A stretch of DNA of 64,000 bases from a virus (IMGVR_UViG_3300036893_000049:1-64000); one strand, 5' to 3'. Shown: positions 58,425-63,403, numbered from the stretch's first letter. Notes: a model not told the origin generated them from the sequence alone. A program made the numbers and translations.

Positions 58425-58470
58425 GGGGTGGCGGCCCCCTAAGAATGTGCTATATGTTGAAAGGCCATAG

Positions 58471-58541
58471 GGCGAGCGCAGAGAGTCGAACCCTGGTCTC
58501 GGGGGTACGAGCCCCGCGTCCTACCGCTGAACGACGCTCGC
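58471..58541 (-). tRNA. tRNA-Thr(CGU)
   Basis: The 71-base cloverleaf is complete: acceptor GCGAGCG/CGCTCGC, D arm GTTC-AGCGGTA-GGAC, anticodon stem CGGGG/CCCCG with loop CTCGTAC (anticodon CGT, reads ACG), variable AGAC, T arm CAGGG-TTCGACT-CTCTG, and C at position 73. CCA is not encoded. A further G at 58542 can pair with C73, giving an 8-bp acceptor like tRNA-His. ACG is a common Thr codon in the GC-rich genes here. Confidence 0.85.
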
Positions 58542-59220: not shown

Positions 59221-59354
59221 TTCTGAGGTATGTGCCGCGACACTCGGTTGAGACGGCTGCCTTCGCGGTCGATTGGGCGTTTGGTCCACTCGGCTGAATT
59301 ATAGACCCGATCACCTGACCACGCCATACGTCACCAGAACCACCTGAGGGGCGG

Positions 59355-59388
59355 ACGCTCCGGGGGAAACTCCGGGGCGTTTTTATTT
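59355..59388 (+). terminator. Intrinsic terminator
   Basis: ACGCTCCGG pairs with CCGGGGCGT (one G-T) around GGGAAACT and leads into TTTTTATTT. It ends plus-strand transcription and lies right at the convergent end of the RtcB operon. Confidence 0.82.
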
Positions 59389-59544
59389 GTCCTCCGCGAT
59401 TCGCGCGATCTCCGCCAGCCTCTTCCGCAATCGCTCGATTTCCGCGGCGGCGTCAGCCAGCAAGACGTAGCCGATGCCGACTTCCTCCGCGGTCAGGCGG
59501 GGGTGGAGGCGGTAGAATCTCAGGCGATCGATCAGTCCGGGCAT
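59383..59544 (-). CDS. Small coiled protein downstream of rtcB, 53 aa
   Basis: ATG 59544 is 2 bases after the rtcB stop, with GGAAAG inside the end of rtcB; ATG 59565 is another option. MPGLIDRLRFYRLHPRLTAE then LADAAAEIERLRKRLAEIAR is a short helical, coiled-coil-like protein. Tight coupling suggests it works with RtcB. Confidence 0.58.
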   Translation of the reverse strand: MPGLIDRLRFYRLHPRLTAEEVGIGYVLLADAAAEIERLRKRLAEIARIAEDK

Positions 59545-59545
59545 C

Positions 59546-60907
59546 TCAGTCTTTCCAAGGATCATCGATTCCGTCTCCCGCCATCGCCACGGCGAATGGC
59601 CGTAGTGTGTGCAGCACTCGCGTCGAGGCCGCGTGGTGAGCCAGCACTTCCGGCAAACGGCGATAAGCCATCGGACTTTCGTCCAGACCGCCGCCCGCCA
59701 GTAACACGCCGCGATCTTGCAACCACGCCTCCATCTGGGTACGGGTGAACGTGCGAATCGCTTGTTTCCGCCCGAATAATCGCCCGGCACCGTGGACCGT
59801 CGAGTAGAGCGCATCCTTCGCTTCTTGGCAGTCAACACCTTCCAAGATCACAGCGTCATCGCCCATGGAGCCGCCAACAAAGCCCTTTTGGCCGGGGAAG
59901 GCTGGAGTTGCACCTTTTCGAACTACCCAGAGATCACGGCCGTTATGCGTTTCGCGCCACGCGTAATTATGATGGTTGTGAACCATTTCGGTCACTGAGC
60001 CGCCGATGATCTGGCGAACACGTTCAACCACCCATTCACGACCGGCGTAAGAGTACCTTCCGGCCAATTGCATCGCCGCGATATAACGGCGGCCGACTTC
60101 ACTATCTTCATCGACCACGGCGGGTGCAACGTTCATGCCGTCTTTCCCGCCAGCCGCTTTCAGATATCGTGTCGCGCTGGTGTGACCGAAACCGCGAGAA
60201 CCGAAGTGGACGCCGATCCAAACGAAATCGTCTTCATCTCGCATGAGATCGACATAATGGTTGCCTGATCCGACCGTTCCTAGCTGTGCGACGGCTTTTG
60301 AGCGGTATTCACCCATGTCGGATTCGCGCCATGCGTCGCTGTCGTCAAAGAGTTCATGTTCCACGCGCTCCTCATTGGTGCGACCGACGCCGAATGAAAT
60401 AACCTTGCGGACATCTTCAAGGATTGGATGGATACGATCCTGGATATCGGAAAATGGCGTGTCCAGGCGAACGGCCATGTTGCCGCATCCGATATCGAAA
60501 CCGACACCGGAAATGCTGATCTGCTTTTCATAAGCGATCACGCCCCCAACAGGTTGCGCGTAACCAAGATGACCGTCCGCGCAAATCACGCCCTTAACCG
60601 CGTTGCCGATAGCCATGCAGTTTCGCATCTGAGCGATGGTGTTGGGATCGTGATCGCCGAAGATCGTCAGAGGACTGTCGCGGAATCGTTCCTCCTGCGG
60701 GCGCAGATTGACGATGCTGGCCGCGAGGTCCGCTGCCTCCCTGGCGTTTTGCGCCGAACGGGCAGCATCGCGGAAATCGCACCATGCGGGCATACCCCGC
60801 TCACTGCCGGGTTTCGCGACACGCGAATCCGGATCGATGCCTTTAGCCTGGCACATTTCGCGTGCGGCGACTTCCAATGGATCGGCTCGACGTGTTGAAA
60901 CAGACAT
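59546..60907 (-). CDS. rtcB: RtcB-type RNA ligase
   Basis: A 453-residue protein with all RtcB landmarks: GDHD (84-87), ADGHLGYAQPVGGVIA (110-125), GVGFDIGCGNMAVR with metal ligands D138 and C141, GSGNHYVD (H216), VHFGSRGFGH (H233), HNHHNYAW (H309-H312), VRKGATPA, GGSMGDDAVILEG and STVHGAGR with the guanylated His 371. RtcB joins 2',3'-cyclic phosphate and 5'-OH RNA ends using GTP and Mn2+, reversing cuts in tRNA anticodon loops. Start ATG 60907 follows GAAGGAGAGAG. A tRNA-like sequence lies just upstream and a nucleotidyltransferase gene before it. Confidence 0.93.
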   Translation of the reverse strand: MSVSTRRADPLEVAAREMCQAKGIDPDSRVAKPGSERGMPAWCDFRDAARSAQNAREAADLAASIVNLRPQEERFRDSPLTIFGDHDPNTIAQMRNCMAIGNAVKGVICADGHLGYAQPVGGVIAYEKQISISGVGFDIGCGNMAVRLDTPFSDIQDRIHPILEDVRKVISFGVGRTNEERVEHELFDDSDAWRESDMGEYRSKAVAQLGTVGSGNHYVDLMRDEDDFVWIGVHFGSRGFGHTSATRYLKAAGGKDGMNVAPAVVDEDSEVGRRYIAAMQLAGRYSYAGREWVVERVRQIIGGSVTEMVHNHHNYAWRETHNGRDLWVVRKGATPAFPGQKGFVGGSMGDDAVILEGVDCQEAKDALYSTVHGAGRLFGRKQAIRTFTRTQMEAWLQDRGVLLAGGGLDESPMAYRRLPEVLAHHAASTRVLHTLRPFAVAMAGDGIDDPWKD

Positions 60908-60927
60908 AACTCTCTCCTTCTATAAGG

Positions 60928-61004
60928 CATCGCCGCACGGGACTCGAACCCGCCGCCTATCCGTTAGTGGCCACTGTGCAGTTCCGACGTTTGCACACGG
61001 CGAT
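60928..61004 (-). ncRNA. tRNA-like element between nucleotidyltransferase and rtcB
   Basis: Read on the minus strand, acceptor TCGCCGT/GCGGCGA (or ATCGCCG/CGGCGAT) and T arm GCGGG-TTCGAGT-CCCGT are canonical, and a D arm with TCGG in its loop can form (TGCA or GCA/TGC). The part that should be the anticodon arm (CAGTGGCCACTAACGGATAG) does not form a normal 5-bp stem with a U33 loop. Length (75-77 bases) is that of a tRNA. It may be a decayed tRNA, a tRNA with an unusual arm, or a decoy/substrate for the adjacent repair enzymes. Confidence 0.6.
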
Positions 61005-61010
61005 ATGGGA

Positions 61011-61991
61011 TCACAAAATCGCGGTTCGATAAGCATCCTTCACGATAGCGTCGATCACGCCGTGGTCCGGCGTCTCGGGCAGTGCGGATACCTCCTCCTC
61101 TGCTTCTACTCGTTCCAACAAATCCTCGATTTCCTCCGCGACGGCGGCATAGGGCAGTTCGCCTTTCTTGATCGCCAGAATATGCTTGGCGTTCAGCAGT
61201 GGAAAGGTGATATGGCCAGATCGCAACAGTTCCAGAGCCTCGCCGCCAACTCGCACCGCATGAGAAAGCGCCTTCCAATCGACGTTTTCGTTACGTTCGG
61301 CCTGCAACGCGCGGGCGCCATATTCGTCCAGTAGTCGAACATAGATCGCGCGCGTATCCTTCAACGATGTGAAGAACGGTGCCTTACGGTTACAGCATTC
61401 AAGATGCGGGATCGGATCGGGACGGCTTGGATGCGGGATAAATATGATCGCGGTATGATCGAGTTTATGTTCCGCGATGAACGTAGGCAGCGTGTCTGCC
61501 GCGATCTCCAACTTTGCCAGATGCCCGTATTCCATGATGGCCTGGTCAAACCAATTCACGATCTCGCGGGCGGCATGAACGCGCGAGCCTTTGATTCCAT
61601 ATTTGTTTGCCTGAGTTCGGCAATAGCCAATGAAGCTGGCGGCACGACGGCTCAACAACTGATGGCGACAATCCCAGATACGGCCCCAGATCGGATCGGG
61701 ATCGCATGTCATAGCCCATCGTGGCGCAAACAGCATGTCCAGAGCAACGGTCTGCCCTTCTGCCAGCAATGACAAATACCGATGGAGCGCATAAGCCTCC
61801 CGGTCGATATCGCCCGCGACGTTCTTTTCGCCAGTCTGCTTGGGTCGTTTGTCTGTTACCGTCGCTTTAACGCGTTGCAATAGGATCGCGTCCGCGTCTG
61901 GCACAAACACGGTTTTGTAATCCACGTCCGACGCTGGCGTGGACGTGCCGTAGAGGTGCGAGCCAAACTTGATCTCGACAAGGGTTTTCAC
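61011..61991 (-). CDS. Polymerase-beta-fold nucleotidyltransferase (YcgL-like)
   Basis: A 326-residue protein. The opening EIKFGSHLYGTSTPASDVDY (6-25) is the GS-x-Y-G-x(4)-SD-D motif of the Pol beta superfamily, with metal-binding D22 and D24. A helical region follows (FIGYCRTQANKYGIKGSRVH, then WFDQAIMEYGHLAKL), and an acidic end. This type, with GSHLYG-----SD-DY, occurs in phages and bacteria; its nucleotide transfer target is unknown. Position before a tRNA-like element and rtcB suggests RNA-end processing. ATG 61991 overlaps the upstream stop (ATGA). Confidence 0.8.
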   Translation of the reverse strand: MKTLVEIKFGSHLYGTSTPASDVDYKTVFVPDADAILLQRVKATVTDKRPKQTGEKNVAGDIDREAYALHRYLSLLAEGQTVALDMLFAPRWAMTCDPDPIWGRIWDCRHQLLSRRAASFIGYCRTQANKYGIKGSRVHAAREIVNWFDQAIMEYGHLAKLEIAADTLPTFIAEHKLDHTAIIFIPHPSRPDPIPHLECCNRKAPFFTSLKDTRAIYVRLLDEYGARALQAERNENVDWKALSHAVRVGGEALELLRSGHITFPLLNAKHILAIKKGELPYAAVAEEIEDLLERVEAEEEVSALPETPDHGVIDAIVKDAYRTAIL

Positions 61992-62404
61992 GACTTATCT
62001 CCAAACATCGCCGCGAACCGTTCTCGTAGAATTTGCTCGGCCTTAGCAGTCAGGATTTGTTCAATTGCGGGGTTCAATTCTTTCCACGTCTCATTGATAC
62101 GTTCGAGGATCATCTTATTGATCGCACCATGCGTCACATCGTTGATGAACGCCGCCGCCATCGCGGTCATGGTGTCCGCGAGCATCTTTTGATATTTGGT
62201 CGCGATGGTTTTTTTATACCAATCGTCTTGAATCATCTCGCTCTTGAGGAACGAATTAATATGGGCTTCAACCGCCTCTCGTGTGGTGCGGCGCGCGATT
62301 TCCTGCGCTACCTGAGCCGCGCCAGTTCTGGCCAATTCAACCGTGGCTTCGGGGTCCAGTTCCAGCAATTTCGCGATTGCCGGTGCGCTCAGCAGCAGTT
62401 TCAT
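61988..62404 (-). CDS. Helical hypothetical protein, 138 aa
   Basis: ATG 62404 overlaps the upstream stop; the longer in-frame start lies inside the other gene. MKLLLSAPAIAKLLELDPEA then AQEIARRTTREAVEAHINSF and QKMLADTMTAMAAAFINDVT is all-helical and may be a structural or adaptor protein. It is coupled to the nucleotidyltransferase. No family recognised. Confidence 0.6.
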   Translation of the reverse strand: MKLLLSAPAIAKLLELDPEATVELARTGAAQVAQEIARRTTREAVEAHINSFLKSEMIQDDWYKKTIATKYQKMLADTMTAMAAAFINDVTHGAINKMILERINETWKELNPAIEQILTAKAEQILRERFAAMFGDKS

Positions 62405-62598
62405 AAAAAAGCACTCGCTCTCATGGCTTTCCGAACGGCATGGTCCCACGGTTCGGAATTGTGTGGCAGCACGACGGCATACTCGCCGCCCTTCTTATCG
62501 ACCCGGTAGCGGATCGCGATGTGATCGCCGGACGGCTCGTGGAGATACACGCTCAGTTCCCCGGCGCGGTCGAAAATGGTCAGTTGCGTGCCAGACAT
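62401..62598 (-). CDS. Small hypothetical protein, 65 aa
   Basis: ATG 62598 follows GGAGGGTGGG. MSGTQLTIFDRAGELSVYLH then DHIAIRYRVDKKGGEYAVVL forms a compact beta domain. It overlaps the next gene (ATGA). Its promoter could lie in the GC-rich stretch upstream. Function unknown. Confidence 0.58.
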   Translation of the reverse strand: MSGTQLTIFDRAGELSVYLHEPSGDHIAIRYRVDKKGGEYAVVLPHNSEPWDHAVRKAMRASAFL

Positions 62599-63241: not shown

Positions 63242-63258
63242 GGGAAGGCTCCTGTATT

Positions 63259-63333
63259 GTGTCGTGCTGTGCGGTGGTGTGGCGTGACGTGTCGTGCGGT
63301 GCCGTGGTGTGGAGTGGTGTGCTGTGGTGTGAT
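63259..63333. repeat. Pentamer-phased (GTGNN)15 array
   Basis: From 63259 to 63333 every fifth base begins GTG: gtgtc gtgct gtgcg gtggt ... gtgat, 15 units without a break, with only the last two bases varying. The plus strand is nearly free of A. It lies in the 162-base gap between two minus-strand genes (63242-63403) and is not a microsatellite of a fixed unit. Confidence 0.9.
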
Positions 63334-63403
63334 GATTTTGGCAGTCCCAACAGAAGCGAGAACGATTCCGTTGGGATTGCCGATGATGTGCCGTGGCGTG
63401 GTA

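Follow-up and report, generated by a model that had tools for sequence, protein, structure and literature searches.

Viral genes for the RNA ligase RtcB are repeatedly flanked, within 150 bp, by a gene for tRNA-Pro, and this tRNA-Pro nearly always carries A37 in place of the G37 that is normal in bacteria. The rtcB gene analyzed here is preceded by a tRNA-like element and by rlaP, which encodes a predicted nucleotidyltransferase, and we give about an even chance to the reading that the locus is a phage tRNA-repair cassette of a known kind, with a tRNA companion that has degenerated or been remodeled. The window, i.e., the whole stretch of DNA that was analyzed, comprises bases 1–64000 of a viral record of 85,259 bases in total.

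Gene content of the rtcB locus

The genes lie on the minus strand in the transcription order p65, p138, rlaP, tRNA-like element, rtcB, and p61, as follows, with an intact tRNA gene farther downstream:

62401–62598, minus strand: p65, 65 aa; homologues lie directly 5' of rlaP in L113, L023, and L160
61988–62404, minus strand: p138, 138 aa; 4-nt overlap with the rlaP start; no family match in Pfam or PHROG
61011–61991, minus strand: rlaP, 326 aa, GTG start; predicted Pol-beta nucleotidyltransferase of the RlaP family
60929–61004, minus strand: tRNA-like element, 76 nt; lies after the rlaP stop and before the ribosome-binding site of rtcB
59546–60907, minus strand: rtcB, 453 aa; predicted RNA 2',3'-cyclic phosphate/3'-phosphate to 5'-OH ligase
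59383–59568, minus strand: p61, 61 aa; overlaps the rtcB end; no family match in Pfam
58470–58541, minus strand: tRNA-Thr(CGU), intact; about 1 kb downstream of rtcB on the same strand; detected with ARAGORN and Rfam (55.6 bits)

An earlier note on this DNA had placed an RNA-repair cassette at 59383–62404. Its coordinates were right, the Pfam and PHROG assignments agreed with the gene families and orientation it gave, and the small coupled genes it saw on each side are p138 and p61, which overlap the rlaP start and the rtcB end, respectively. The complete RtcB that it described, with its metal ligands, was also borne out. The protein matched the Pfam RtcB profile (PF01139) with 216.5 bits (cut-off 27; E = 9.9e-64), as well as PHROG 1075 and the solved RtcB structures 4dwr and 1uc2 in the PDB. 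The Asp, Cys, and His metal ligands and the guanylated His of the catalytic core are all in place, with D138, C141, N216, H217, H234, H310/H312/H313, and H372 invariant across 17 aligned sequences; the histidine given as number 371 is present but is H372 in a numbering that includes the start Met. A ribosome-binding site, AGGAG, lies 5' of the gene.

The nucleotidyltransferase was identified as RlaP from its matches to PF10127 (54 bits, cut-off 23) and PHROG 388 (E = 9e-76), and nrdC.11 of the T4 relative RB16 belongs to the same family. Its Pol-beta GS...SD.D motif, noted earlier as GS-x-YG-SD-D, was confirmed, with G10, S11, D22, and D24 invariant in 20 aligned sequences. An AlphaFold2 model of the protein was confident (pLDDT 92), and the predicted structure weakly resembled Hailong HalB and kanamycin nucleotidyltransferase (E about 1.5e-3); a sequence search of the PDB with RlaP returned no match. 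Homologues of p65 were found in three relatives (phmmer E = 3.6e-21, 1.1e-8, and 2.3e-8), including a 65-aa protein at L023:5819–6001, and their position directly upstream of rlaP in all three makes p65–rlaP the conserved pair and probably the older unit. No homologue of p138 or p61 was found among the fetched loci.

The association of rlaP with an RNA ligase gene, evident in the window from the adjacent rtcB, is rare among its relatives. Conservation of the gene pair in other phages had been named beforehand as a check, and the outcome was mostly against it: in the fetched stretches, which extended up to about 6 kb per side, rlaP occurred at 5 of 174 viral rtcB loci; it was found in none of the contigs of the 18 first-found rtcB relatives; and the closest relatives of rlaP (77% and 44% identical) had no rtcB. 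Among 47 records searched whole, many of them fragments, four contained rlaP, the window's own record included. In Erythrobacter phage XM05, both genes are present in one genome, about 26 kb apart. A conserved rlaP–tRNA–rtcB trio was therefore rejected, as rlaP is seldom near rtcB and the tRNA-like element has no detected relatives.

Because rlaP stands apart from rtcB in nearly all relatives, which counts against a cassette, the adjacency in the window may be due to chance. On that explanation, the two genes and a decayed tRNA were gained separately in a region that collects accessory genes and have no joint function. The counts above favor it, as do the failure to find a further copy of the tRNA-like element and the lack of detected homologues of p138 and p61, whereas the tight same-strand packing with coupled starts, the recurrence of the linkage between viral rtcB and tRNA genes, and the co-distribution of RlaP and RNA ligases described in a published account (PMC7824862) argue against it. 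We regard chance neighborhood as possible but rather doubtful.

Outside the cassette, the Rfam DUF3800-VI RNA motif was detected on the plus strand at 59245–59296 (50.3 bits, cut-off 35), with a terminator-like hairpin on its 3' side (59353–59382, plus strand). A DUF3800 gene, which was looked for as its partner, was absent from the record, and the motif and hairpin may constitute a stand-alone small RNA. A low-complexity, G/T-rich intergenic stretch occupies window positions 63255–63335.

The tRNA-like element

The tRNA-like sequence claimed between the two genes withstood closer analysis. Its fold is a cloverleaf, in which an acceptor of 8 bp (AUCGCCGU/GCGGCGAU), a D arm (UGCA/UGCA), and a T arm (GCGGG-UUCGAGU-CCCGU) are paired. 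The anticodon arm is mispaired, with a 3-bp stem and an 11-nt loop, its 17 nt being the canonical length, and CCA is not encoded. Standard ARAGORN made no call at the element, and its best Rfam score, to tRNA-Sec, was 19.7 bits, below the cut-off of 47. A covariance model trained on 28 tRNAs from the window and related loci gave the element 19.9 bits (E = 7.5e-4 across the 64-kb window) and the window's tRNA-Thr, itself among the 28, 62.7 bits. The fold energy was no better than that of shuffled sequence (z = 0.2), so the evidence for the element is its tRNA layout, not its stability. The element does not combine the four arms, U33, anticodon, and detection by standard models that mark a functional tRNA; judged from its layout, it is tRNA-derived and, by these tests, is no working tRNA.

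Neither relatives nor a second copy of the element were found with nhmmer in the fetched loci, with blastn in phages and plasmids, or with an exact pattern in viral contigs. An isotype could not be assigned by similarity, Pro ranking low and being no closer than other isotypes. Two ARAGORN calls, a "tRNA-Ser(act)" in mitochondrial mode and a Pro with a 1.9-kb intron in intron mode, were treated as artefacts.

The earlier note had proposed that the element is a built-in tRNA substrate or decoy. That specific role received no direct support, but the linkage to tRNA-Pro described below unexpectedly supports a broader version, namely that a tRNA accompanies phage rtcB. A decoy or inhibitor would be a tRNA mimic that lacks an anticodon and is under selection, and it might occupy a host anticodon nuclease or bind RtcB or RlaP. 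The paired acceptor, D, and T arms, with mispairing limited to the anticodon arm, would suit such a mimic, and there is a possible parallel in the tRNA-like YrlA of the Salmonella rsr-yrlBA-rtcBA operon, for which competitive inhibition of a nuclease has been put forward as a suggestion (Hughes et al. 2020, PMC7790460). Against this stand the single copy, with no relatives for covariation or conservation comparison, the fold energy that matches shuffled sequence, and the absence of a match to a Ro60/TROVE protein from the 85-kb record, and we consider a decoy unlikely. We think it similarly improbable that the element is a processing signal (a spacer between rlaP and rtcB cut by RNase P/Z) or an attP remnant from a host tRNA: it fills the intergenic gap exactly, before the rtcB ribosome-binding site, and in L006, the space between an integrase gene and rtcB holds the 3' fragment of a tRNA, about 0.1 kb upstream of rtcB, but no tyrosine integrase was found in the 85-kb record, and attP normally retains only the 3' part of a tRNA, whereas the element has kept its D arm and 5' acceptor strand as well.

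Linkage of viral rtcB to tRNA-Pro with A37

An intact tRNA-Pro was located within 150 bp of rtcB at 18 of the 174 viral loci, with a truncated copy at L007 in addition (about 11%), and at none of 80 rtcB loci from bacterial genomes, where the tRNAs within this distance were 12 of other isotypes. In Fisher tests that counted tRNAs, some of them from related contigs, so that the p-values are optimistic, the clade of the window's RtcB had 12 Pro and 5 other tRNAs within 150 bp (a cut-off picked after this first set had been seen; 800 bp was also tried) versus 10 Pro and 85 others farther away (p = 5.5e-7), and a sample of distant viral RtcBs, gathered after the first set and tested at 150 bp, had 7 Pro and 1 other versus 8 and 67 farther away (p = 1.1e-5). 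None of 82 rlaP loci had a tRNA-Pro within 150 bp of rlaP, although this locus-level comparison is weaker (p = 0.001).

The 19 linked rows corresponded to 15 changes on the RtcB tree (FastTree), and the linked tRNA-Pro genes lay on either side of rtcB and on either strand, most of them downstream, indicating that the linkage is not one inherited block; on this tree, it may have had about 15 separate origins. The mean pairwise identity of the linked tRNA-Pro was 69%. Relatedness was rejected as the cause of the linkage, as 15 changes were still needed for the 19 linked loci (FastTree only). An attachment site was likewise rejected as a general cause: an integrase was detected in 4 of the 27 contigs searched, the window's record among them and many of them fragments, and A37 is unlike host tRNA-Pro.

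Bacterial tRNA-Pro normally carries G37 (as m1G37; PMC8643618). Of the rtcB-adjacent tRNA-Pro, 17 of 19 had A37, compared with 25 of 127 in a viral background sample drawn by sequence pattern, in which T4 is included and the remaining 102 have G37 (Fisher p = 4e-9). When both sets were drawn under one identical pattern, the counts were 9/9 and 20/112 (p = 9e-7). A tRNA-Pro(UGG) with A37 occurred within 100 bp of rtcB in L006, L009, L044, L052, L053, L055, L084, L085, L092, and L095 and also in L197, L210, L212, L256, L258, L260, and L268. In L044, whose RtcB is the nearest relative of the window's on the RtcB tree, it lies 4 bp after rtcB. The 5' end of the tRNA gene apparently contains the rtcB stop codon in both L055 and L007.

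Named phages gave a more restricted picture. A close-range look at roughly 16 named isolated phages revealed the linkage in one, Tunturiibacter phage Tunturi_5, in which a tRNA-Pro with G37 lies 51 bp from rtcB. In none of eight named phages that were checked was a tRNA-Pro annotated immediately beside rtcB, and in Rhodococcus phage Peregrin, a tRNA-Pro lies about 1.3 kb from it. The linkage thus characterizes only some viral rtcB genes. Tunturi_5 also has a second tRNA-Pro-like gene 134 bp after rtcB (L043:7304–7385), with an 11-nt anticodon loop, ACGGTAGCAGA, which can also be called as a tRNA-Cys with a 4-nt insert. A literature search, with most subscription journals outside its scope, found no account that links RtcB, phage, and tRNA-Pro, and the linkage is apparently unreported so far.

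A proposed repair cassette and its relation to known systems

In the repair cassette that we favor, the ligase would mend tRNAs of the host or the phage, or other RNAs, by joining the 2',3'-cyclic phosphate and 5'-OH ends left by a metal-independent host nuclease, and RlaP would first put back nucleotides lost at the break. The tRNA-like element would most likely be a degenerated or remodeled form of a tRNA gene of the kind that viral rtcB has repeatedly gained as a companion, most often tRNA-Pro(UGG) with A37; this companion may replace the tRNA repaired by the ligase or be a nuclease-resistant version of it. The placement of the window's RtcB among the tRNA-Pro-linked RtcBs suggests that the element may be such a degenerated companion; its position upstream of rtcB speaks against this origin, given that most linked tRNA-Pro genes are downstream, and so does its sequence, which resembles tRNA-Pro no more than it does other isotypes. 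The restriction of the linkage to about 11% of viral rtcB loci and to one of the named phages seen at close range also counts against the favored reading.

More broadly, and only tentatively, viral rtcB and A37 tRNA-Pro may form a repeatedly re-assembled counter-defence, in which the ligase repairs tRNA-Pro cut in the anticodon loop by a host nuclease and the altered companion escapes or outlasts that nuclease, the window's companion having no anticodon arm. We know of no nuclease that matches the rtcB-linked tRNA-Pro. The strong and recurrent linkage to one isotype, with an unusual base by the anticodon, makes tRNA-Pro a concrete candidate for the physiological substrate of RtcB enzymes from phages, predicts a class of host nucleases, and renders the question of the substrate directly testable.

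Taken alone, the window's trio is mostly a known kind of cassette. RlaP, "RNA ligase-associating Pol-beta," is predicted to be a co-worker of RNA ligases in phage RNA repair (PMC7824862, citing Burroughs and Aravind 2016). The earlier reading of an RNA-repair cassette agrees with this prediction, and RtcB and a nucleotidyltransferase are not a newly recognized pairing, since the partnership of RlaP with RNA ligases is already published there. In the RlaP and RNA ligase kits, as that account presents them (Iyer et al. 2021, PMC7824862), a PF10127 nucleotidyltransferase and an RNA ligase likewise occur in one phage, with predicted restoration of nucleotides ahead of ligation; the window differs in that the ligase is RtcB and is adjacent, an arrangement rare elsewhere, with a tRNA-like element between the two. 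The Salmonella rsr-yrlBA-rtcBA operon (PMC7790460) also clusters rtcB with a tRNA-like noncoding RNA. However, that operon is chromosomal, whereas the window is from a phage, with no Rsr/TROVE protein in the record, no RtcA beside rtcB, and no Y-RNA domain seen; a Y-RNA/Ro60-type RtcB operon was rejected, as no TROVE match was found in the 85-kb record and Rfam gave no Y RNA hit.

Phage tRNAs with anticodon-loop changes evade tRNA-cutting defences (PMC10264068; PMC11555353). The rtcB-linked tRNA-Pro resembles them in its changed anticodon-loop base (A37 for G37) and differs in being absent from the accounts found. The closest working analogy for the linkage is T4, which mends PrrC-cut tRNA-Lys with Pnkp/Rnl1 and also encodes a tRNA-Lys (PMC10264068). 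The mechanism proposed here would be analogous to this repair and to the evasion of anticodon nucleases by phage tRNAs, with the differences that RtcB would join cyclic-phosphate and 5'-OH ends directly, without Pnkp, and that the isotype would be proline.
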